This document shows positions 10,344-64,000 of a DNA stretch of 64,000 nt, one piece after another. Within the stretch, counting starts at the first letter, position 1. Each line of letters begins with the position of its first letter. The notes under the pieces are model-generated. The model searched no databases, was not told the origin of the DNA, and saw only the letters and a list, made by a program, of their open reading frames with translations. Both the position numbers and the translations under genes were made by a program. Source of the stretch: Sanghuangporus weigelae (Eukaryota; Basidiomycota; Agaricomycetes; Hymenochaetales; Hymenochaetaceae); NCBI GenBank assembly GCA_033182465.1, contig CP137323.1, forward strand, positions 1,922,001-1,986,000. Reading direction: 5' to 3'.

Positions 10344-12187
10344 ATGGCAGCAGTACTTGTAGCGCGACAACCTTCTCATCGTCCGCATCAGCACTCGGCG
10401 GCATCTTCAAGTGCGAGCTCGCACTCCCCCTTTCGAAGAGTACATCGAGCATCATACGTTCCGCCTGCTCCAGGTAAATCCTCTTCTGCTTCAGCAGCAG
10501 CTGCGGCTTCTTCATCGTCATCCGTGAGTCTGGCGCCCGTTCTCCTGCGTGTTTGATCGGTGCTCTGATCGATTTTTTCGCTTCTATTACGTCCTTATGT
10601 CACATTTGTCACTCCAACAATGTCACGCATACAACACAACAGTCCCGTCCTCACCACACGTCATCACAAACAACAGCTCCTCCCCCTCCAATAGACAATT
10701 ATTATGGGCACGAAGACACCAGCAAAATTTGCGCCCGTTTCGTTAGTCATACATTTCAATGTCCTGAGACCATTCCTTCTCCCCCTGGTCAATCTTCGAA
10801 TGGCGTTGTCTCCCGCAGCGGGACGACGGTAGGACCGCAACCACCCTCGCAAGGCCTCAATACATTAGCACACTTCGTTGCATATGCCCTCCACCGTACA
10901 CGTTTACACCCTTCCGTAGTTTTCACAGCACTTGCCCTCTTGCACCGCCTCAAGTCGAGATTCCCTGCCGCGCGCGGAAGCTCAGGACATCGTCTGTTTC
11001 TCGCAGCATACATGCTCGCCTCGAAAGTCGTCTGTGACGATACATACAGCAACAAGTCATGGGCCGTCGTCGGACAAGGCATGTTTGCTTTGCGCGAAAT
11101 CAACCAGATGGAACGCGAAATGCTCGGATATCTCGAGTGGAGCCTCAACATCCCGGGTGAGGATTTGGTGAATTTCGAGAAGGAGGTACGGAGAATATAC
11201 GGTGTTGGAAGAGAGCGGGAGAGCTGGGGTCGTGGTGTTGAGCTGCGCCTTCTCGCTGGCGTTGGTGGCATTAAGCCACCACAAGAAACCTCAATGGAGG
11301 AGCTACCCGTACTTGCCATTCCCGCAATCTGCGGAAATGTAGAGAAGAGTCCACCTCACCAGTTGCCTACTCCCACTGAGGCTGGTCCTGCGGTCGTTCC
11401 TGTACCTACTCGTCCTGCTCTTCCTCCTATCTCGACCGCCGTCGCGAAAGTGCCGGCATACCCCAGTCCTCCGAGTTCTCCGACCTCCGCTCCCGTTTCG
11501 CGGAAAGCGATGTGCGATTCAAATAGCTCGAGTGCGAGTACGTCACCCGTTGACGGTGAATCTGAGCAGGATGAGTCTGATACCGAGTATGATCCATACC
11601 CGTATCCTCGTCGTCCGAGATTTGAGCAAGAGGGAGGTGACGGTAGTCCGAGTCCTACAAGCAGCGAAGACAGTGCCGCTCTGCCGACGCCGCCGAATTC
11701 CGCGTTTCCGCACCATAGATCTTCGTCCCACAGTTACGCGGGATACGCTCAGAAGATGGGTAAGAGTCATTCCGTCCCAGGATTTATGTATGCGCCTCGT
11801 GAGGCTCCTGGATCTCTGGATGTTGGCCGATCGAGTGCTCCTCCCGTTGCTGTTCCTAAGCGGGAACCCGTAGTGTCGAGTGTGAGTGCCTCGCATTTTG
11901 GATCTTTCTCAGCCAGTATGGAAGAGGATGGCGATACAGTGATGGACCTTGAGGACGAAAAGCGTGGTGGGATGTCTTACTACACTACCGTTCATCGTCC
12001 TATCCAACGCCCCGCTTCGACGGCAGCCGTGATGGCTTCATCCCGTGCTTCTGCGTCTTCTGTAGTGAAGAAAGAACTGGGCCCGATGAGAGATCGTGAA
12101 CGAGACCGAGGAAGAGAAATCAAGGAAGGCGGGAGGAGAGATAAAGAAAGGAATCTGAGGACTTACACTGTGCCTTGTGCTTGGTGA
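10344..12187 (+). CDS. PCL/Pho80-family cyclin (Pho85-type G1 cyclin)
   Basis: Predicted regulatory subunit of a Pho85/Cdk5-type cyclin-dependent kinase. Exon 1 is 10,344-10,523 (60 codons, Ser/Ala-rich). The intron 10,524-10,642 starts GTGAGT and ends CAACAG. Exon 2 (10,643-12,187) keeps the frame and gives 574 aa. The cyclin box lies at about residues 80-230, with the typical stretches ICARFVSHTF, LAHFVAYALHR, FLAAYMLASKVVCDDTYSNK and EREMLGYLEWSLNI, the last being the hallmark of the Pcl1/Pcl2/Clg1 group. The C-terminal 340 residues are low-complexity Ser/Pro with acidic patches and a terminal Arg/Glu-rich segment, as expected for a disordered tail that is phosphorylated and degraded. An alternative GT (GTAAAT, 10,475) inside exon 1 could give a shorter form. 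Class assignment is confident. The exact Pcl subgroup is not. Confidence 0.88.
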
Positions 12188-39996: not shown

Positions 39997-40906
39997 ATGA
40001 TGTCTGACTCCGACACAAGCACTCGATCGATAGACCTCGGTCCTCTTCAGCCGCTGAAGACGCACTATACCCGAATAACACGCCAGTATCGTGCGTTGCT
40101 GGATCGTGCAGCGCCGCACCTTATGTATAGATGGTTTGGAACGGCGGGGCTTGTCGCAGTTTTCATGCTTCGAATCATCTTTTCTCAAGGGGTGAGCCCA
40201 TAATGCTGATAAAATGAAGTGCCTACTGAAGTGCTTCTCCTGTTTGTGCAGTGGTATATCGGTATGTTCCCGTATCTCTCATGCTGCTGTAACGCTAACA
40301 TTTCTTACCCTTTTCTGCTTGATACTTTGAATAGTTTGTTGTGAGTATTGCATCTACCATTCGGAAGTCAACCTCCTTGAACATTTTATCTGTTTTATTA
40401 GACGCACTCGCCATCTATCTTTTAAACTTGCTCCTTGCATTCTTGCAACCTAAATTTGATCCTTCGCTTGAAGCCGACCTCCAAGCTGACGAAGTCGAGG
40501 AGGGCGGTACGGAGAATATGCCGTCGTTACCATCGCAAAAGGATGATGAGTTCCGACCGTTTGTTCGCCGTCTTCCAGAGTGGAATTTCTGGTGCGTTTT
40601 GTCCCTACGTATCAGAGCTCTAACATTAATGTTCGCATATCTCAGGTTGTCCTCTACACGCGCTACGCTTATTGCGTTGTTCTGCACTTTCTCGGAGTCG
40701 TTCGACGTCCCAGTGTACTGGCCCGTCCTCGTGATCTATTTCTTCATCCTCTTTACTCTTACCATGAGGAGACAGATACAGTACGTTTCGATTCTCTCTT
40801 TTCGTATCCCACGTTTGTTGATGTTTGATTCAACTCTAGGCATATGATCAAATATAAGTATATCCCTTTTGACTTCGGACGAAAAGTGCGCTATGGGTCG
40901 CGGTGA
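39997..40906 (+). CDS. RER1: RER1 family ER-retrieval receptor
   Basis: Golgi membrane protein that retrieves ER membrane proteins in COPI vesicles (known role of Rer1). Six exons: 39,997-40,191; 40,252-40,261; 40,335-40,340; 40,402-40,591; 40,646-40,780; 40,840-40,906. They sum to 603 nt, giving 200 aa, the usual family length. Exons 2 and 3 are only 10 and 6 nt, and together they code the conserved GWYIVCYALAIYLLN block exactly. Other hallmarks are QYRALLDRAAPHLMYRW, FVRRLPEWNFW, FDVPVYWPVLVIYFF, TMRRQIQHMIKYKYIPFD and the short basic tail RKVRYGSR. Four membrane segments fit the family. All introns are GT-AG. Confidence 0.95.
40252..40340 (+). other. RER1: RER1 micro-exons of 10 nt and 6 nt
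   Basis: Exon 2 (40,252-40,261, TGGTATATCG) and exon 3 (40,335-40,340, TTTGTT) are separated by a 73-nt intron starting GTATGT and ending ATAG. Only this splicing yields the invariant W-Y-I-V-C-Y run of the family. Confidence 0.85.
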
Positions 40907-41675: not shown

Positions 41676-42691
41676 TCACAGGATGAAAGGAATCACCGCC
41701 CTCCTTTCCTTGGGGTAATCAGGGAATTTTGAGAGATACCACAGATGGCCTCTGTACGCACGAGACCACATCACAAAGACCAACGAAAAGAAGAAGAGCC
41801 ATGGTGGGTCAGCCCTCGTGAAACCTGTGTACGACAAGGACGGGAAGGGCGCGGCGGCGAGAGAGAACCCGGCCCACTCGATCCACTCGCAAAAATAATT
41901 CGGGTATGAAATGTAGCGGTAGAGGTAACCGCGCGGAATGCCGTAGTGTGGTTTGTCGCTGCGTTTTGCTTGGCCCTTGTCCACTAGTTTCTGCTTCTTT
42001 TTGAGTGCATCCCGGCGGATGTCCATCAGTATTTCGTCGTGCAAAATGTTGCCTGTCCAACCAAGGAACCAGAAGGTTATCCCTAGCCAAAATGAAGTAC
42101 GGGAGAAGGCAGAGCCGAATCTTGGGGAGTCTAGAAATGCGTATGCTTCGGGTGAGGAGAAATATGTTCCGAGTAAAGATCCGTTGGCGGTCTGGAAGAA
42201 CAGAGCTACCAGGGGAACGAGGATGTGTGCTCTTGACCGCGGAGGTGAACGCAACGGATAGATCAAAGCGCGATTGACGTAATGAATAAGGAAGAGGAGC
42301 GAGAGAAGTGTCCGCGGATCTCGGAGACTTAGACTCAATGGAGGTGTTGCGCTGCCTTGCGAGAGTGGAGCTTTGATGAGAGTAGCTACGAAGGTGATCG
42401 GACAAACGATTTCCATTACTATCCATGACTTATTTCCTGGATAAAGTCAAGTGAGGAGTAAATCCTTGATCTAGATAGTTTCGCGACAAGGAAACAGACC
42501 ATCGACGACCATCCATGAATTGTCCGAGAGCGTAAAGCGGCCAAAGGGCGCGTCGATGAACCGAGTTATTAGACCGGCAATAGGCGGAGTGAGAGCAAAC
42601 CACTTGCATGCCTCTACACATAATATATGTTTAGCCTAGCATCCTCTTACTTTTGCTTTCGCTTACCCCTATAAAGAAATCTTACGCTCAT
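41676..42691 (-). CDS. 3-oxo-5-alpha-steroid 4-dehydrogenase family reductase
   Basis: Membrane NADPH-dependent enoyl reductase family (steroid 5-alpha-reductase, DUF1295-like fold). Three exons: 42,691-42,667 (25 nt), 42,613-42,500 and 42,436-41,676. They total 900 nt, giving 299 aa. The 25-nt first exon was chosen because it yields the conserved start LYREACKWFALTPP and the frame closes. Motifs visible: IDAPFGRF near residue 28, GNILHDEILMDIRR (cofactor/substrate region), PRGYLYRYISYPNYFCEWIEW, then AYRGHLWYLSKFPDYPKERR and a C-terminal IPFIL. The physiological substrate in fungi is not certain and could be a sterol or other enone lipid. It is divergent from BUB3, with 329 bp between the starts, and a decayed copy lies directly 3'. 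Confidence 0.9.
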
Positions 42692-52520: not shown

Positions 52521-53088
52521 GGTCAACGCAGACGGACAATGGGCAGTCAAGTTTTGGCTTGCGCAGATAAGACTCGTATTTATATAGACAGGAATCGAAG
52601 CCCGGATCACGAGTGACAGAAGAGCGTGCCCGATAGGCAAAGCGCCTGTAGTATGATACCATTCTCCACCGAGTGCGAAAAGTCGCTGTTTGCTGGAGCT
52701 GAGGCAATCCGGATCCTAGATAACGCCATTGAGAGGCGATTTTTGTCCTGCCATCATCGACCGCTTCGATGCAAAAACACAGGGTCAGAGCGGGTTTTTC
52801 TGGTTGTCGTTATGTCGCAGATGGTCCTTTCGACAGCAAATACACCTCTTTACTTGGCGTAATAGATATCAAGGTGCGCAGAAAGTAGACATAATGAAAG
52901 GGAGAGTGATTCTGATAAGCTGAAAAGAAGATATTTATTCCGAGTTGATGGCATCAAAAGAGTTGGAGTTCCTCTTTTGGAGGGGAGGGTGGTTGTATAA
53001 TTTTAGACTACGAGTGTGAGTGTGACGTCACGTCATGTGCACAGATTTCAATTCAAACTCATGTCCGGACGCTCTTTACCAGACCAGA
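52521..53088. other. divergent intergenic region, permease and NFKBIL1-like gene
   Basis: About 0.57 kb shared by the two divergent starts. It must contain both promoters. A TATA-like TATTTATATAGACAGG lies near 52,570-52,585, read toward the permease on the minus strand as CTATATAAATA. No gene is seen. Confidence 0.5.
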
Positions 53089-54263
53089 ATGCCTCGTCTG
53101 CATCTGAAGAGGACACCGGCTGAAGAGGAGGAACGAGCCAGGAGAAAATCTAGGAAAGCTTCAAAGAAACACAAAGAGAAGAGAAGTCGGTACGCTTACT
53201 CTGACAATGACGACTCAGAGCGAAAGCAACAGCGTCCTCGCTCACGGTCAAGAAGCCCAGGACGCGGTTCAAACCATCGTTCCAGAAAGTACTACAACCA
53301 GGACCCTTTTCCGGGAGATCCAGGCCCGTCTTCTTATGCACACAGTCGCGAATACGTGAACTCCGATGATGACGCTTCTCAAGCGCGTGTGGAAGAAGAA
53401 CGCTTTGAAGAGAAGTTGCGTGATGCATTAGAAGACGATGGGCTGTATGACTCGACGCAGCGCCTTGATAATGTCGAAGCACGGTTGAACTCTTATGCTC
53501 ACATTCCTCGCCGGTGGCGGGGAATGGACGATGGATTCAGTGCAGGCCTCTGGATGGAGGACGCTCGGGAGGATATTGGTCTTGAGCCGTGGCAAATGAA
53601 CGACGACGAATACGCCGAATATATACGTGCGGGGATGTGGAGGTATGTTCGTTCGTTTGTTCAAAATCACGAGTACAACACTTATGCATGTCTATCTTTA
53701 GGAAGAAGAACCAGGCGGAATATGAGGAACGCTTGCGCAAGAAGGAGGAACGGAGACGAAGGGACGAACGTGAACAACGTCGTCGAGCAAAGACTAGAAG
53801 ACTCGAGCGTGAGGTACAGGTGGAACGCGAGAAGCACTCCGCAGCAAAAGCCAGGCGGAGGCGAGAAGAGGCGAGGCGGTTTTACGAAGAGCGATGGACT
53901 ACTCTGCTTGCGCGTCCTGTTTCGAGTAGTATCACCGAAGATCGTTTACCCATATCGTTTGCCGACATACCGTGGCCCCTAGCAGTTACGAAGAACATTT
54001 CATCAGAAGAGTTCATCGAACAGCTCACGAAGGACGCGGTGTCGTCCTTCTTGCTGCGTTCTGGAGAGGAGACCGATACCACAGATGGACCGGCGCCTTC
54101 TACCAAGGACGTCCTCCGTACGACGATGCTCAGATTCCACCCTGATAAATTCGAGTCACGTATTCTGTCCCGTGTCGAGGAGAAGGATAGGGATCTCGTC
54201 AAAGAATCCGCGAACGTGGTCATGCGGATTCTCAACGATCTGATGAAAGATCTTCGTGATTAA
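53089..54263 (+). CDS. NFKBIL1-like protein with degenerate J-like C-terminus
   Basis: Fungal homologue of NF-kappa-B inhibitor-like protein 1. Two exons, 53,089-53,642 and 53,702-54,263, give 371 aa. The N-terminal third is Arg/Ser/Lys-rich with an RS-like run (RPRSRSRSPGRGSNHRSRK), suggesting nuclear localisation. The middle holds WRGMDDGFSAGLW and a long charged coiled coil (YEERLRKKEERRRRDEREQ). The C-terminus has ISFADIPWPLA and LRTTMLRFHPDKFESR, the latter recalling the HPD loop of J proteins and being the best family marker. The start at MPRLHLKR was preferred over an in-frame ATG 54 bp upstream because the residues before it look non-coding. In animals the protein is linked to RNA processing. 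The fungal role is unproven. Confidence 0.82.
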
Positions 54264-55032
54264 CGGAGCCTTACTTTCAAGACGGAGCTCTTATATTCTA
54301 AGAGCATCACCATTCTGCTGCCTGATTATGTCTGGAGCTTATACCATGTCTTTCAAGGAGTTATATCTCATAGGTTCGGAAGAAACGGGTAGTGCCTTGG
54401 CCTCATTGAAGGACATGCTACGCTTCAATATTTGTAGGATCGAGATGTCGTTCCTCGGAAATGACAAAGTCTCAGGCCTCGAGGACAAAGTCGGGGAAGA
54501 AACCCGGATCTGTCATAGATATGCCTGCCGTTTCCAGGCCTTTTATCACTGCGAAGAGTCGAGTCCCTATACATACTTCTGCCAAGTTCTTTTAGACAGG
54601 GACCACTGCTAGACTTCCCTTTATAATCGAGAGATATCTAGAGTGTCGAGATGGAACGGATGCTCTTCCTCTCCAGATTATCCGGCTTGCTGACAAATTT
54701 CACCAAATGCGTTCATAATCAGGGTCTCAACTCGCTGGGCGCTGGGTGCATTAAAGGCGAAACCAACGCTGAGAAATTTGAATGCTGGCAACACAACATC
54801 GCGCAAGACCGCATACAATGTCTACTCTTGCAATTGCAGTGTTTGGAGATGGTCATTCTGCGCCGCATTTGCAGTATTATCAGTATATAACTCCTATTCG
54901 CCTTAGATGATTGTAGTAGGCCTACATAGTAAAGCATTTCTATTTATGGTTCTGACCGACAAATATCTTACTGAGCACCTCTAAGATGTTACTCGACTCG
55001 GACCTCGACGATTATAAGCCTGCCATTTCCCT
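54264..55032. other. intergenic region between NFKBIL1-like gene and eIF4G derivative
   Basis: About 0.77 kb between two convergent genes. The right end, just beyond the stop of the eIF4G derivative, is old eIF4G downstream sequence. No gene is recognised, and the short open frames lack motifs. Confidence 0.55.
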
Positions 55033-58000
55033 TTAATTTGGGCAGTATTGTGTCGGAGCGGATGCGGAAAATATGACTCGAGTGCCTGATGAGTGATAAG
55101 CAGCTGCTGCGTTACGAGGAATCCATTTCCGTTCTCGCAACTCAATCACGTCCTGACAGGAGAGATTAGAACAGCTAAACACAGACGAGAGAAGATACGT
55201 ACCTGTAACATAAGTTGCATACGGCGAGAAGACACATTGCTGCTCCTGGCGAGCTCCTTCATCCGAGTGAAGTAGACATCCATATGTCCCCGAGCCTTGG
55301 AGGTATCCAGAGCCTGGCCAACAGTCGAGAGAAGCTTACACAGACTCTCGATCTCTTCTTCCTTCCGGTTATCTTCGTTATTGAGGAGCTTCTTAATGCA
55401 TCCATGCATAATACGCTCCGTAAGCATCTGCAACTTGTAAAGCTCGCCGATGAACTTGATAAGACCTAGACCCTGACGCCTCGCCTTTGAGACAGCAAAG
55501 TAATCATCGGAGTAAAGCGAGACTTCTCCGTATTCTTCCCTGTTCTTTTCGTCGGCGTTCTCTACCGCTTGATTCTCGGTCTCCTTCGCAGGGGCTACGG
55601 TCGCTTTTCCGGCTGACCAACCGCGCTTCAAATCCTCCTGACAGCGATTAAGAAGGTACTTTCGGAATAGCAGACCACCGGTGATAGGCTTGCCCTCGCC
55701 ATTGCGAATGCCATCGTCTTGGATATTCGGACTGATCTGCTTCATCATCTTTCGACATAGTCGCGCGTACATTTCGTTCGAATCAGCCTCATCTTTCGCC
55801 TTCTCGAGTACGAGTCGAACGACCTGGATAAGCGTGCGCCCGTCCTTCTCATTTTCGCTCTTGTTCACCCAAGCGATAATCTGGTTCGAGATAGATTCGA
55901 ACTTCTCCTTGGTGAGCTTGTTGAGCAAGGCGCGAACTTTCTTATCCACGACTTCTGGCGAATCTAACGAAAGAGAAGATGCCGCTCGGTGCATTAATAC
56001 ATTATGGTCCTGGAGCGGACAAGCGGTATCTGCGTTGCGTGGAATCCATTTCCGTTCCCGCAGCTCAATTACATCCTACAAGCAAGAAGTCAGACTAGAA
56101 CGCAGAGGGACAGATACTACAAACTTGTAACATTGCTTGCACGTGAGGCTGGACTTTGCTGCTTCTAGAAAGCACCTTCATTCGAGTGAAGTAAATAGCC
56201 ATATGTCCCCTAGCCTTGGAAGTATCGAGGGCCTGACCGATATTCGTCAAAAGCGCGCACAGACACTCAATTTCTTCTTCATCTGGGTCATCGACGCTGC
56301 TGAGGAGTTTCTTGATGCATTCATGCATGATATGGTCAGGGAGCATTTGCAGTTTGAAAAGTTCACCCACGAACTTGACGAGACGAAGAGCTTGATGCTT
56401 CGCTTCCAGTGCAGCATTATGTTCATCCCAGTAAAGCCAAATGTCTCCATCCGCATCCTCGTTCTCCTCGCTGGTGTCGTTGACTGCCTTTTTTCCGGTC
56501 TTCTTTTCTTTCGCTACCGCAGCCGTCATTTCCTTGGCAGACCAAGTACCCTCAAAGTCCTCCTGACAACGGTTCAGAAGATACTCGCGGAACAACAAGT
56601 CACCAGAGATTGGTCCGTCTTCGACATCGCAAAAACCGTCATCCTGGATATCCGGACTGATCTGTTCCATCATCTTTTGACACAGTCGCGCATACATCTC
56701 GCTCCAAGCAGCCTCGTTCACTGCCTTCTCGAACACAAGTCGAATGACCTGAATTAGCGAGCGCCCAACCCTCTCGTTCTCCCTCTCATTCACCCATACG
56801 ATGTTCTTCCTCTTGTTCACCCATACGATGATCTGGTTTGAAGTGAACTCGAAATCCTCCATGCTGAGCTTGTTGATTAAGGTGCGGACTTCATTGTCCT
56901 CGATTTCTGAAGATCTTAGTCGGACAGAAGACCAGGGAATGGAGGGCGTGTGACTTCCTGAAGAATGCAAAGGGTTGGGTTTCCCACCGAACAACGTTGA
57001 ACGCGCGATTCGTTCTTCGCTCCTCACTTTCGGCCCCACAGAGAATCGGCAGGTAGAATTTTTGGATGTTGTATCTATGCCTTGCGAAATGTCTCGTTGC
57101 CTAGGGGAAACCCGGTGCTTTACGTGAGACGGATCGATAGGTTTGAGGCCCATCGCCACGAGATCAGGAAATTCACCTGGCTTCTGTTTACAGACAGACA
57201 TGAATTGAAGAAGGAAATCTCTATCATATCTATGCAAAGAGACAAGAGTAGATAAGCATACTTTGATTTTGTTAAATGTAAGTCAAAAGATGTACAGACC
57301 GGAATTTCCCATCCTTCGCGCTCATATTGAGTTCAGGCTTAGGACTCACGATTCCCTCGGGATACGGAACGTGGTAAACATCCTGAATATGACGAGCAGT
57401 AGCAAGTGCGGACAGCGCAGGATTTATGGCGGCTTCTGATGATATCTTCTTCCCTAGCTCCTTCAGTTTAACGCAGTCATTTTCTTCATCCTCCTCCCTC
57501 TTCTGCTCTTCTTCCTTACGCTTGCACTCTTCCTCTAGTCGAGCGCACTCCTTCTCCTCTTCCTCCTTGCGTCGCTGCTCCTCCTCTTCCTTCCGCTTCC
57601 GTTCCTCTTCGGCCTTTATCCTTGCCTCTTCCGCAGCCTTTGCTTTCTCTTCCTCCTCCCGGCGTTTACGCTCCTCAGTTTCCTTTGTTTGCCTCCTCTT
57701 TCTCTCCTCTCCCTCTTCCTTTTCCTTTTGCTGTCTCTCCTCCTCGATCCTCTTCAATCGTGCCTCCTCTGTCTCTAGTCGGATCGCAGCCCGTCGCCCA
57801 ATCTTATCAGAGGCAGGAGTCGATGAAGCCGTTGAAGGGGTAGCACCGTGCTTGCGTAATCTGTCCAGATCGATTTCATGACCAGAAGCGTCAGTGATCT
57901 TGATCTTGCTCTGACGCTGCACAGGAGGCGGTGCATGACTAGGCACGAAAGTGCTAACATTGCAGTCAAGTCGCGACTCTAAACAAAGATGAGGAGGCGT

Positions 58001-58585
58001 TCCTGCAGAACTTGCTTCGGGCGCATCGGCGGAGTCCTGTGCACTGACATAGTAACCAGGCCATCCAGGTACAGTTGGCATATGTGGCATGCCTTGGACG
58101 GGGGCAGGCTGTCCCTGGTGTTGGTGTTGATGTGGTACATGAGGTTGAGGAGGGGCGAGGCGAGGCGACGGCATGTTACTATTATTCGGGCCAGGAGGCC
58201 CGCTATTCACGGGAGGTCTACCTGGAGCACCATTCGGCATCGCACGAGCGATCGAAGGCGAGCGAGGTCCGCCTCCGACACTCGGATTTCGCATAGATGG
58301 CACAAAAGAAGGCGGAAATTGCTGCTGCGGTTGTTGATGTGGATGGTGTTGAACATGAGGATGAGGACCGGCGTCAGGTTGACCAGGCGTATTTTGGGTC
58401 GGAGGCGGGGGAACGGCAGGCGATAAGGTATTTGAGCGCATTGGCGGCGAGGCCACGTTCTCAGGGGAAGAAGCATTTACAGGAGATGAGGTCTTGGTGT
58501 CGCTTCCGCCACCCCGGAAGAACGACGATATATCGACTTCTGGTGACTTGTGCGTCGCGGAAGGCAGACTAATAACTCCATCCAT
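55033..58585 (-). CDS. eIF4G-derived protein with two tandem MIF4G domains
   Basis: Rearranged paralogue of the eIF4G gene to its right. Exons 58,585-57,300; 57,229-56,125; 56,075-55,203; 55,152-55,033 sum to 3384 nt, 1127 aa, with no stop. Residues 1-200 are Pro/Gln/His-rich, then come KIKITDASGHEIDLDRL and a Glu/Lys coiled coil shorter than in the parent. The eIF4E-binding motif YDRDFLL (Tyr at 57,228) is kept. MIF4G domain 1 (about 56,930-56,125) is diverged and carries a 9-residue tandem repeat. MIF4G domain 2 (about 55,955-55,203) is close to the parent. Each is followed by DVIELRERKWIPRN. The parental C-terminal MA3-like domain is missing. The last 20 residues come from former 3' UTR. 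It could bind eIF4E and eIF4A but not C-terminal partners. Expression is unknown, and it may be a young pseudogene that is still open. Confidence 0.82.
56789..56842 (-). repeat. 27-bp in-frame tandem duplication in MIF4G domain 1
   Basis: The block TTCACCCATACGATG occurs at 56,789-56,803 and 56,816-56,830, a 27-bp period. In protein it gives IVWVNKRKN then IVWVNEREN, against a single unit in the parental gene and in MIF4G domain 2. It falls in an early helix of the MIF4G fold. Confidence 0.8.
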
Positions 58586-59809
58586 CAGGCAGAGTACGAA
58601 GAAAGGGGGTTTCGAGACGTTGCGGATACATGGGTTTGTACTTAAGGAGCACGAAAGGCTTCCTGATGCCTCGAGGTGAACTTGTAAGCCTGCATAGCAA
58701 GAATAGCCCACCCCATTCTAGTGACGTGAAGCATCGAGAAGCTACCATACTGGATAAGGACCACCTGACTCGGGCAAGAGGTAACTGCCTTCCTATAGAG
58801 AACGACTCCAGGACTTAAGCGCCTTCCAGTACGGGCGCCTGAGAGTGGTGATGCAGCTGATCAAAGCATCATGATAGCTAGCACACCCATAACACAGAGA
58901 AGAATTCGATTTTGTGCGGTGATTCGACTTCGGTCATGACAATGAGACTCATCTCTGTCTCAGCTTCCTACAGATCGTACAGTCAGATGAGGTAGTTTAA
59001 TACTTACAGCTATCAATATCGCACCTTTAGCTGGCATTCCTTCATCTGCTTCTAAAGACGCCTGGGCGTCTATCCAATGCATCGCACATTAATACACCAC
59101 TTAAGGTTCCCTCTTGCACGTTCTCGACCCAAACAGCAACGTAATGGCATGTACTATCGCTTAGCCGACGCAAGGACTATTTCAACGACGGAGCATCCAG
59201 CTAGTAGCAATGATCAAACTTGGATATAGATAGATGAAAAGGCAAGTTAGCCACCCCGGATAAACGATGACGTAATATTATATAAGGAGTACTCGATCCC
59301 ATACTCCGTAAATAAATAAAAAACATGAATGTTTCATCCCGACCAAATGAAATGAGTGCGAAGCCTTACCTTATATCCAAGAAGAACTCCAATTATGACA
59401 ATCCGAGTATCCGTGAGAGCGATATGCGATCATATTGCAATGATGCGTACAAAAGTGAGAGTAAATATGAGTGCAACAAATGAAAACAAGTGGCTATACA
59501 GAGGACCGCCGATGCAAGATCGAAGAAAGAAAACACAGAGAGTAACAAAGACATGGTAAAAAGAAAGAGGAAGGAAAGCAACAAAAAATAATAATTGAGG
59601 GAAAACAAAGCAGGAATAAAAAGGGCGCGCGAGGAACGACTGCAAGAGGAATAAAATAAAGTGTCATGCAGGCACGGACTCACAGAATGGCGAGCTTAAG
59701 GAAGAAGAGACCAGTATTATGTTCAGGCGGGCGCGGGCGGAAAGTATGACTTGAGTGCCTGATGAGTGATAAGCAGTATATACAGAAGTCAGGAAATGCA
59801 GGAAGAAAT
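58586..59809. other. intergenic region between eIF4G and its derivative
   Basis: About 1.2 kb. The right end (roughly 59,700-59,809) is the 3' UTR of the parental eIF4G, shown by its match to 55,040-55,103 in the derivative. The left end must supply any promoter of the derivative. The frame of exon 1 stays open upstream of ATG 58,585 to about 58,711 without another ATG. No gene is seen. An AT-rich stretch lies near 59,260-59,330. Confidence 0.6.
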
Positions 59810-62800
59810 CTAAGATAGAAGAGCAAGCAGTTTGTCACTGTCCATAGACTTGCTCGCTATACGCGTCCGTCGTTCCTCGTCTAGTTTCGCACCTTCCATC
59901 ATAATTGCCATGAGATTGAATGCCTTAGGAGCGTCAATAGCTATATCGTCAAGCATTTCCGTAGCAGGTAGGAAGCCTTCTTCGAAGGTCGCAGGCGAGC
60001 AAAGATTTCGTGAGATAGCACGTTCGAATAGGTCCGCAACAAGTTTCGCCTCCGTTTCCTTGGCCTCGAGTGCATACAGGATAAGCTTCTCGATGAGGAT
60101 ATGTCGATGTTCCGTCGGAAGCGCAGAGAAATATTCTTCGCCCTCATCGAGATCGCGAATAGCAAAGAACTCTTTCCGGTCTTGATCGACCTTCTTCTCT
60201 GCCTGCTCCTTCGACATCGATGGTTTACCAGAATCCTTCTCGATAATCTCGCCTTCCTCACCATCCTCATCGGCATGACTCTCGGCCGGACTCGGCTGAG
60301 ACGCCTCCAGCAAAGGCTTCGAACGAGGAAGTAAATTGAGCTTAGGTCGCTGCGAAGGAGTCGATTCACCAGACGCGTTATGAGTGAGGTCAACACTAGC
60401 AGTGCGACTCGTTGCACGACTAGCACGGGACGACGTTGACGCAGCAGGAGGTTCATTGGCGGCTTCGGTGGCTTGCAGCATCTGGAACATATTCGTGTTC
60501 GAACTTGCTCTAGACAGGCTTGCACTGTCGCGCTTGCTGTCGCCCTTCTTCGTGAACACACTAGCCGGACCGAAGTTCATGGCACCACTACCCTTCTGGA
60601 TTTTGCCGAAGTTTGTCAAGTCACCGGCCTTGTTGGCAGGTCGAGAAGGACCAGAGGCAACAGCCCATCCATCAGGACCAACCTGTACATTACCATCACG
60701 GTCCTGCCCACGACGTGATCCACCACGAGACATCGCCTGCCGAGCCAGATTGTGTTGCTCTTGCTGTGCCTTCTCCTTTGCGGCCTGCAATAGCGATTAG
60801 CGCTGGAGATATTAGAACAAAACCATACATACTGTCTCGTGGATCTGCGCGATCGTCTGCGGAGCAGCTGCTGCGTTACGAGGAATCCATTTCCGTTCTC
60901 GCAACTCAATCACATCCTGACAGGAGAGATTAGAACAGCTAGACCCAGACGAGAGAAGATACGTACCTGTAACATAAATTGCATACGAGACGACACATTG
61001 CTGCTCCTGGCGAGCTCCTTCATCCGAGTGAAGTAGACATCCATATGTCCCCGAGCCTTGGAGGTATCCAGAGCCTGGCCAACAGTCGAGAGAAGCTTAC
61101 ACAGACTCTCGATCTCTTCCTCCTCCGGGTTATCCACGTTACTGAGCAGCTTCTTGATGCATTCATGCATAATACGCTCCGTAAGCATCTGCAACTTGTA
61201 AAGCTCGCCGATGAACTTGATGAGACCGAGACCCTGACGCTTCGCCTTTTGGGCAGCATAGTATTCTTCCGAATAAAGCGAGACCTCTCCGTCTTCTCCC
61301 TTGTTCGTTTCGTTGGCATTCTTGACTGCTTGGTCCTCAGTCTCCTTCACCTTCGCAGCTGCAGCTGTCGTCTCTTTAGCCGACCAGCCGCGTTCGAAAT
61401 CCTCCTGACAGCGATTAAGAAGGTACTTGCGGAATAGTAGACCACCGGTGATGGGCTTGCCCTCGGCATTGCGAATACCATCGTCTTGGACATTCGGGCT
61501 AATCTGCTCCATCATTTTGCGGCACAAACGTGCATACATTTCGCTCCAAGCAGCCTCGTCCGTGGCCTTCTCGAAAACAAGTCGAATAACCTGAATAAGC
61601 GTGCGGCCGTCCTTCTCATTTTCGCTCTTGTTCGCCCAAGCGATAATTTGGTTCGAAATAGACTCGAACTTCTCCATTGTGAGCTTGTTGAGCAGGGCGC
61701 GAACTTTCTTATCCACGACTTCTGGCGAATCTTGGTCGCCCTGAGTGCCACGTCTGTTTGTGCTTCCCGGAACCCAACGGTTAGCGGAGTGCTCAAGCGG
61801 TGCAACAGGTTCGAAAGGAGCGCCGTTATTCATGTTGAATTGAGTAACAGCAGCATTGATACGATTTGATTCGTTACGCGTTGCATCACCACGCTTACTG
61901 CGCGTGCGTTTGTTACCCATAGCACCCGGACCGCCTTGACTAGACGAACGGACCATAGGCGAAGCACGACCTCCAACAAATGGCATCGCACCGGGACCAC
62001 CGCTGAGTGATGTCGAACGCATGAATCGCTCTTCGCTCGTCAGCTTCGGTCCAGCAGAGAACTGGCCCATGGCGAAGTTCGAGCCAACCTTGCCGTTCAA
62101 AGGACCAAGGCCTAGTCCGACTGATCCTTGTCTTGCAGTTGAGGTCGGCGGACCCATCGAGCCCGATACACCCCTTCGACCAGAACCACCGCGACCCATA
62201 GAATGCGACTGATCAACTGGTTCAAGGCCAATTGCTTCCAGGTTAGGAAGATTGTCTGGCTTCTCTTTGCACACAGACATGAATTGAAGGAGGAAATCAC
62301 GATCATACCTGTTCAAACAAAGAACTTAGCATATTTTCGCCCACGAAATAGTAAGAAAATACGAACCTGAATTTCCCATCTTTCGCATTCGTATTGAGTT
62401 CGGGTTTAGGACTTCTGATTCCTTCGGGATATGGAACCTGGTAAACGTCTTGAATATGACGGGCGGTAGCGAGGGCGGATGGAAGGGGTTGCGCGACAGG
62501 TTTATGAGTTGATGAGAGGTCAAGAGGACCAGGGATAGGTCGTCTCTTGGCAGTTTCAGGAGAAGCAGAGAGAGGAACATCCGTAACAGCAGAGACAGTT
62601 TCGCCTTCTTTCTTTGACTTAATTTCGACTGGAGTGGACCTCGGCTTTTCCGCTTCAGTCTCTGCTTTGGCTTTAGCCTCCTCCTCTTTTCTTTGCCGCT
62701 CCTTCTCTTCTTCCTCTTTTCGTAGACGCTCCTCTTCCTCCTTCTTTCGAATTTCGTCCTCCTTCCGTCGTTGCTCTTCTTCTTCCGCCTTACGGCGCTC

Positions 62801-64000
62801 CTCTTCCTCCTTGACCCGTTTTGCCTCTTCCTCCTTGCGGAGCCGCTCTTCATCCTCCTTGCGAACTCGCTCCTTCTCCTCCTCTTCCTTTCGCAAGCGC
62901 TCCTTTTCTTCCTCATCTTTACGCTTGCGCTCTTCCTCTAGTCGAGCGCGCTCCTTCTCCTCTTCCTCCTTTCGTCGCTGCTCCTCCTCTTCCTTCCGCT
63001 TCCGCTCCTCTTCGGCCTTTATCCTTGCCTCTTCCGCAGCCTTTGCCTTCTCTTCCTCCTCTCGACGTTTACGCTCCTCAGTTTCCTTTGTTTGCCTCCT
63101 CTTTCTCTCCTCTCCCTCTTCCTTTTCCTTTTGCTGTCTCTCCTCCTCGATCCTCTTCAATCGTGCCTCCTCTGTCTCCAGTCGAATCGCAGCCCGTCGC
63201 CCATTCTTATCAGAGGCAGGAGTCGATGAAGTCGTTGAAGGGGTAGCACCGTGCTTGCGTAATCTGTCCAGATCAACTTCATGACCAGAAGCGTCAGTAA
63301 TCTTGATCTTGCTCTGGCGCTGAGTGGAAGGCGGTGCATGACTAGGTACGAAAGCGCTAGCGTTAGAATTCAATCGAGGACCTGCACCAGGAAGAGGTGT
63401 CTGCATTCCGGCCGGAGGCGTTCCTGGCGCTTGGAGGGGAGCTTGATGTTGGCGAGGCGATGAGACGGGAAGACCAAGGGAATGAGCAAGTGGAGTCTGC
63501 GGCGGTCCATTTGGACCTGGAGGCCCCTGGTGGGGATGCTGGGATGGATGCATATGCCACGGTTGCGGCGGGGAATAATACATGTGATGTTCTGCCCCTG
63601 GCATGTTTTGCATCGGCATACCGGGCATGTAAGGGTACTGTCATAAAATTAGCACTGAATAATTTAAATTTAAATTTATCCCGAATTTCTACTGACATAG
63701 TAACCAGGCCATCCAGGTACAGTTGGCATATGTGGCATGCCTTGGACGGGGGCAGGCTGTCCCTGGTGCTGATGTTGATGTGGTACATGAGGTTGAGGAG
63801 GGGCGAGGCGAGGCGACGGCATGTTACTATTATTCGGGCCAGGAGGCCCGCTATTCACTGGAGGTCTACCCGCGCCATTCGGCATCGCACGAGCGATCGA
63901 AGGCGAGCGAGGTCCGCCTCCGACACCCGGATTTCGCATAGATGCAGGCACAAAAGAAGGCGGAAATTGCTGCTGCGGTTGTTGATGTGGATGGTGTTGA
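59810..64000 (-). CDS. translation initiation factor eIF4G (partial, N-terminus beyond window)
   Basis: Scaffold of the eIF4F cap-binding complex, joining eIF4E, eIF4A, and poly(A)-binding protein. The gene enters from the right edge. Visible in order: a Pro/Gln/His-rich N-terminal region (64,000-63,390), KIKITDASGHEVDLDRLRKHG-type block, a very long Glu/Lys/Arg coiled coil (about 63,190-62,650), ALATARHIQDVYQVPYPEGI, an intron, then the eIF4E-binding motif YDRDFLLQF (Tyr at 62,307; human eIF4G has YDREFLLGF). A Gly/Ser-rich linker leads to the MIF4G domain (about 61,735-60,970), then DVIELRERKWIPRN, a linker starting HETAAKEKAQQEQ after an intron near 60,787-60,831, and the C-terminal MA3-like domain (YFSALPTEHRHILIEKLIL...) ending at TAG 59,810-59,812. 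All visible exons are open. Confidence 0.93.

Follow-up and report, generated by a model that had tools for sequence, protein, structure and literature searches.

The 64,000-nucleotide stretch of the Sanghuangporus weigelae genome analysed here (the window; contig CP137323.1, positions 1,922,001 to 1,986,000 of the forward strand) carries a derivative of eIF4G, the central scaffold of cap-dependent initiation, beside a complete eIF4G gene. Both genes lie on the minus strand, and the derivative adjoins its 1562-amino-acid parent head-to-tail, behind it. The derivative consists of four exons (58585-57300, 57229-56125, 56075-55203 and 55152-55033) which join in frame, as had been proposed in a preliminary description of the locus, to an open frame of 1127 codons with the ATG at 58585 and a stop codon ending at 55033. 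The joins 57300/57229, 56125/56075 and 55203/55152 are all GT..AG, and the three donors (GTCTGT, GTTTGT and GTACGT) all match GTNNGT. The same pattern is matched by 4/4 parental donors within the window (GTCAGT, GTTCGT, GTACGT and GTATGT), where the preceding exon base varies. The parental length was summed from 1324 codons inside the window and 84 codons, one split codon and 153 codons beyond it. The features of the two genes are listed below.

57300..58585, minus strand: derivative exon 1, with a new 16-residue start, a near-parental N-terminal region including a charged coiled-coil-like stretch, and the beginning of the eIF4E-binding region
57230..57299, minus strand: derivative intron 1, GTCTGT..TAG; if it is retained, the frame would stop after 437 amino acids
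57209..57229, minus strand: start of exon 2 with the putative eIF4E-binding motif YDRDFLL; DGKFRYDRDFLLQFMSVC, which spans the splice join, is the same as in the parent
56125..57229, minus strand: derivative exon 2, with the eIF4E motif, a shortened linker and MIF4G unit 1
56913-56034, minus strand: MIF4G unit 1, a span that includes the DVIELRERKWIPRN codons
56776..56829, minus strand: 27-bp in-frame tandem duplication within MIF4G unit 1, giving 9 extra residues, 24/27 bases alike
56076..56124, minus strand: derivative intron 2, GTTTGT..TAG; retention would give 806 amino acids and a donor 4 bases further on 798, with the stop just past unit 1
55203..56075, minus strand: derivative exon 3, with DVIELRERKWIPRN, an unrelated-looking linker and MIF4G unit 2
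55967-55111, minus strand: MIF4G unit 2, a span that includes the second DVIELRERKWIPRN
55231..55358, minus strand: 128-nt stretch of unit 2 equal to the parent, a probable recent gene-conversion tract
55153..55202, minus strand: derivative intron 3, 48/50 bases the same as parental intron 60966-60917
55033..55152, minus strand: derivative exon 4, with the second DVIELRERKWIPRN and then a tail translated from former parental 3' untranslated region (3'UTR) to a new stop
55064..55103, minus strand: derivative tail, matching parental 3'UTR 59776-59737 at 95% over 40 bp, on the far side of the C-terminal/MA3 deletion
59810..64000, minus strand: parental eIF4G, 3' 1324 codons, with introns 63696-63638, 62366-62309, 60966-60917 and 60832-60785; the start codon is outside the window (L007:6778)
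60875..61734, minus strand: parental MIF4G unit, used as the comparison reference; its exon scored 165.4 bits with Pfam MIF4G
59811..60784, minus strand: parental last exon with MA3, not present in the derivative

Domain content of the derivative

The domain content was examined using Pfam, with cut-offs of 30.8 bits for MIF4G and 27 bits for eIF_4G1. Two MIF4G domains were recovered, one in exon 2 scoring 115.9 bits and one in exon 3 scoring 140.1 bits. Exon 1 gave a match to eIF_4G1 of 37.1 bits, consistent with the earlier assignment of the gene as an eIF4G derivative, and the exon 2 part alone scored 20.8 bits, below the cut-off. The MA3 domain of the parental last exon scored 40.1 bits. 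A scan of the assembly that holds the window (33.9 Mb in 13 contigs) found MA3 in two places, the parent and contig C7, and none in the derivative, in agreement with the reported loss of the C-terminal MA3-like domain. The N-terminal pieces of the parent gave no Pfam match. The YDRDFLL segment, which we take to be the eIF4E-binding motif and which falls in the eIF_4G1 region, is unchanged from the parent, although bases at its splice join have changed; the motif is thus intact, as first described.

Both units retain the complete MIF4G domain including DVIELRERKWIPRN, and the insertions and deletions within them preserve the reading frame. Unit 1 shares 184/268 aligned residues with the parent and unit 2 shares 230/268. 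The PDB sequences matched by exon 2 and by exon 3, six in each case, were all eIF4G or eIF4G2 chains. A low-confidence structure model of unit 1, with a mean predicted local distance difference test score (pLDDT) of 52, matched MIF4G structures of eIF4G such as 2vso_F (template modelling score 0.74 by target length). In the Foldseek search with this model UPF2 (4cek) appeared at rank 14 with an E value of 4.4e-3, compared to 5.3e-9 for the best eIF4G. The model of unit 2 was poor (mean pLDDT 45) and was left out of the fold search. Other MIF4G loci of the genome were located at C7:1574044-1575480, with MA3 nearby, and at C5:1439960-1440655; the C7 arrangement presumably resembles that of CWC22/NOM1-type proteins.

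Rearrangement, gene conversion and selection

The DNA identity between derivative and parent is uneven. The N-terminal blocks 58352-58043 and 57956-57497 are 96% and 94% identical, respectively, the surroundings of the eIF4E motif 74%, unit 1 72% and unit 2 88%. At the 5' end 16 residues of the derivative stand in place of the first ~176 residues of the parent. Identity to parental DNA begins at 58553; the segment 58585-58553 has no parental DNA match and homology upstream of the derivative ATG is weak by eye. The flanks 58600-59600 and 54300-55060 matched only themselves. At the 3' end parental 60863 and 59776 have been brought together at a common CTGCT word, and the match of the derivative tail to parental 3'UTR shows that a deletion between two CTGCT words took away the C-terminus with its MA3 domain. 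The derivative introns occupy parental positions, which rules out a retro-copy and indicates that the copies arose as DNA and not through RNA. An assembly error, raised earlier as a possible source of the two units, is likewise rejected as unlikely, since the copies have diverged (unit 1 at 72% DNA identity) and their matches are collinear on a single contig. Every one of the seven matches returned by the own-genome search with derivative DNA was on contig C6 and fell within the derivative itself or the parent. A 59-bp scrap, 86% identical to the last parental eIF4G codons (window 59868-59803), stands alone at C9:2114015-2114073 in what appears by eye to be an intron-like stretch of another gene.

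Pairwise synonymous divergence (dS) was 1.31 between parent and unit 1, 0.36 between parent and unit 2, 1.09 in the eIF4E region and 0.07-0.13 in the N-terminal blocks. Along unit 2, divided into seven blocks that were each 34 to 40 codons long, the successive values were 0.27, 1.33, 0.40, 1.09, 0.18, 0.17 and 0.09, and equal divergence over these blocks was rejected (chi2 31.3, 6 degrees of freedom, p 2e-5). A runs test of unit 2 against the parent gave p 0.003, and the 128-nt identical stretch was matched in 0/5000 codon shuffles. Divergence between parent and unit 1 was likewise mildly uneven (p 0.04), and a maximum-run test between the two units also gave p 0.04. The derivative is accordingly a mosaic of an old core of eIF4E-binding region and MIF4G unit 1 with a near-parental N-terminus and parts of unit 2. 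This mosaic divergence indicates repeated gene conversion between parent and derivative, the direction of which needs an outgroup. The age of the derivative probably corresponds to a synonymous divergence of about 1. An origin of unit 2 purely as a recent addition is doubtful, as its two blocks at dS 1.33 and 1.09 match the age of unit 1 while the others lie at 0.09-0.40. Because divergence in these oldest blocks is close to that of unit 1, the arrangement with two units may go back to the time when derivative and parent separated, the conversion patches having come later.

Branch values of omega (dN/dS) were obtained from a three-branch star of parent, unit 1 and unit 2. They were 0.03 for the parent, 0.18 for unit 1 (likelihood ratio test (LRT) against 1, 70.0) and 0.40 for unit 2 (LRT 3.47, ~p 0.06). 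The eIF4E region gave a pairwise omega of 0.10 over 73 codons at dS 1.09, which marks purifying selection there too. A pairwise omega of 0.5, the expectation if one copy is free and both branches are equal, was rejected for the eIF4E region (LRT 18.45), unit 1 (41.8) and unit 2 (16.3). In neutral simulations a sequence of unit 1 length at dS 0.98 acquired a mean of 10.1 stops and 0/2000 remained stop-free; at unit 2 length and dS 0.16-0.28 there were 3.7 to 5.6 stops and 2.3% to 0.35% remained stop-free. The G+C content at third codon positions was 0.58 in unit 1 compared to 0.39-0.45 in introns and flanking DNA, a difference that is supportive only. The comparison of each unit with the parent, suggested as a check in the preliminary description, thus gives a clear signature of purifying selection on unit 1 and points to it only suggestively for unit 2. 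The same description had ascribed the long open frame to constraint or youth. Both appear to apply, by region: the core with unit 1 is old and constrained, which speaks against pure youth there, and recent conversion appears to have reached the N-terminus and some of unit 2.

Just downstream of the derivative a plus-strand gene at window 53026-54263 gave no Pfam match in either of the two frames scanned. Elsewhere in the window, frames of Cyclin-domain, Rer1 and steroid 5-alpha-reductase type lie at 10478-12187, 40335-40847 and 41676-42446, respectively, and seven of the ten long frames scanned against Pfam had no match.

Predicted contacts and mode of action

The parental segment SANRWVP, which we take to dock on eIF4A, aligned to yeast eIF4G in its eIF4A complex (2vso_E). 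The string is absent from the derivative, where a lone Trp lies 5' of unit 1. Searches for the Trp residue, the SANRW string and mushroom eIF4G returned nothing useful. The best eIF4A candidate of the genome, distinguished from an eIF4AIII-like gene by motifs that we assume to be diagnostic, reads DLYE and REFTVSAM in the contact region, where residues 265, 268, 296 and 298 were placed by what we take to be the human sequence. For the human proteins, the available part of one report models the eIF4G-eIF4A contacts R764/S767-E268, T773-T298, Q779/Q783-D296 and D982-R45, and describes loss of eIF4A by the mutants S767D and Q779D/Q783D and inactivity of T773I and D982R (PMC7470955). When the six positions R764, S767, T773, Q779, Q783 and D982 were compared by alignment, with D982 set by its offset from T773, the parent and unit 2 both had K, A, T, S, Q and D, and unit 1 had E, T, S, F, Q and D. 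The Glu of unit 1 at the site of human Arg764, modelled facing Glu268 of eIF4A, is a charge reversal relative to the Lys of the parent and unit 2. The Asp of the DVIEL segment, which corresponds by offset to D982, is kept in both units. The H1-CT motif after HEAT-1, whose core is given as RRx5KxIxExHxxA in the part available of its description (PMC3352336), was located by eye as PRNAAAAPQTIAQIHETA in the parent and as a degenerate PRNADTACPLQDHNVLMHRAA after unit 1, and after unit 2 it is cut off by the deletion. The earlier assumption that a MIF4G domain implies eIF4A binding is weakened by the missing SANRWVP, the charge reversal in unit 1 and a constraint on unit 2 that is not significant at 5%. 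Three eIF4E-family loci were found in the genome, at C13:1091970, C2:1306280 and C1:1997979-1998749 (five matches over the Pfam cut-off), and separate eIF4E-family partners for the two eIF4Gs, including a dedicated partner for the derivative, are possible.

We tentatively favour a reading in which the derivative is a constrained coding paralogue of eIF4G that binds eIF4E, whose recruitment of eIF4A and ribosomes is poor or altered, and which acts as a competitor or a tuned scaffold. The protein would bind eIF4E via YDRDFLL, as the motif suggests, and the missing and changed contacts suggest that its MIF4G modules would recruit eIF4A and ribosomes more weakly than those of the parent, or differently, the eIF4A face being altered in unit 1 and nearly parental in unit 2, which however lacks SANRWVP. 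With eIF4E bound in this way the protein would therefore compete with the parental eIF4G for it, and initiation would be tuned down or steered to a subset of messages, an effect other than that of a simple extra dose of scaffold. A bolder proposal, which we regard as doubtful, is that the gene is a dominant regulator of cap-dependent translation, in which the eIF4E hook was kept, the eIF4A-docking arm, MA3 and N-terminus were lost and MIF4G was doubled, and which has been under selection beside a parent that donates sequence to it.

Several points weigh against the competitor reading. The repressive direction of action that we infer has to be set against yeast eIF4G, which works without the MA3/HEAT-2 domain, a domain that is not universal. 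Constraint on unit 2 by itself is not significant at 5%, with omega 0.32 in the tract 55859-55521 (p 0.12) and 0.40 in the one that starts at 55520 (p 0.16), and dS near 1 approaches saturation. The deep constraint on MIF4G also appears weak, because deeply conserved sites are kept little better than unmatched ones: among the 185/270 parental unit positions comparable in both alignments, parent, yeast and human agree at 48, with 37 of these kept by unit 1 and 42 by unit 2, and the parent differs from both yeast and human at 64, with 42 and 52 of these kept, respectively. The selection recorded in unit 1 may in part date from an era inside an ordinary full-length paralogue.

A positive, specialised scaffold ranks close behind the competitor and is nearly as likely, because unit 2 has the parental residues at the modelled contacts and yeast eIF4G functions with no MA3 domain, although taken singly it remains somewhat unlikely. 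Its two units would together load a pair of eIF4A molecules, or the eIF4A work would fall to unit 2 and unit 1 would have acquired a different partner. The scaffold would serve certain messages or stages, possibly with another eIF4E-family protein. The retention of the whole domain including DVIELRERKWIPRN in both units, the likeness of the low-confidence unit 1 model to eIF4G MIF4G structures, the three eIF4E-family loci and the two overlapping eIF4G isoforms reported for yeast in the part available of that account (PMC2817733) are in line with such a role; the absent SANRWVP, the Glu at the Arg764 position, the loss of the C-terminal region after unit 2 and the weaker constraint on that unit speak against it. 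It is less probable that the derivative is a decaying or silent duplicate which owes its healthy look to a past as a full paralogue and to refreshing conversion from the parent. The uneven divergence with its 128-nt identical tract, the relaxed unit 2, the modest protection of deeply conserved sites and the loss of the parental 5' region, by which the promoter would not be parental, would fit decay, but at a dS of about 1 the unconverted core is free of stops and its omega is low, the splice sites are intact in 3/3 introns and the indels in the units are in frame. Least probable of these readings is a mainly single-MIF4G protein, produced if intron 2 were retained or spliced 4 bases further on, with exons 3-4 as an untranslated tail. 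Both alternatives hit a stop at once, the parental donor GTACGT has been altered to GTTTGT and constraint is weaker on unit 2 than on unit 1; against this, GTTTGT still matches GTNNGT as the parental donors do, the preceding exon base varies there too, and the exon 3 frame is still open.

As a constrained paralogue with two MIF4G domains and an intact eIF4E motif, the derivative would offer a natural test of the contribution of each module, and of whether an eIF4G can become its own competitor by domain loss. The tandem pair would also illustrate gene conversion under opposing pressures, with homogenisation of the N-terminus and of stretches of unit 2, and the eIF4E/MIF4G-1 core kept apart.

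Comparison with known systems

The canonical fungal eIF4G, represented by the parent and by yeast TIF4631/TIF4632, has in common with the derivative the eIF_4G1 region, YDRDFLL and a MIF4G domain with the DVIEL segment. The derivative differs in having two MIF4G units, no SANRWVP and no MA3, and in lacking the N-terminal ~176 residues of the parent. The available parts of two published accounts describe one MIF4G per eIF4G (PMC5862402, PMC3352336). Among the papers listed in a literature search on two or tandem MIF4G domains or on fungal eIF4G duplication, which does not prove absence, tandem MIF4G domains were described for UPF2 and in similar settings and no eIF4G had two of them, in line with the preliminary description, which knew of none. 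No relative was obtained by tblastn among 55 pattern stretches from viral contigs and 157 from prokaryote contigs. As multiple eIF4G isoforms are widespread, according to the part available of one account (PMC2817733), the derivative is a variation on known eIF4G multiplicity and not a new kind of gene.

DAP5/eIF4G2, Paip1 and other MIF4G relatives are likewise divergent kin of eIF4G with the MIF4G fold, and 4iul and 3rk6 were among the Foldseek matches to the unit 1 model. Each solved chain of these relatives has one MIF4G of the eIF4G kind, and DAP5 is described in the available part of its source as lacking eIF4E binding (PMC9977666), whereas the derivative keeps the motif. UPF2, described in the part available as having three tandem MIF4G domains (PMC3936715), resembles the derivative in carrying several MIF4G in one chain. 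Compared with UPF2/CBP80-type proteins, the derivative units are far closer to eIF4G, as their PDB sequence matches were eIF4G/eIF4G2 only. In function and not in homology, the eIF4E motif would liken the derivative to a 4E-BP-like competitor for eIF4E. A mechanistic parallel is a human eIF4E-engaging eIF4G fragment which, as stated in the available part of its report, can be a dominant repressor when unable to recruit the 43S complex, needs PABP binding and arises by proteolysis (PMC13081929). The derivative is instead a gene that encodes MIF4G units, and by analogy the human fragment would be a precedent for its dominant repression.

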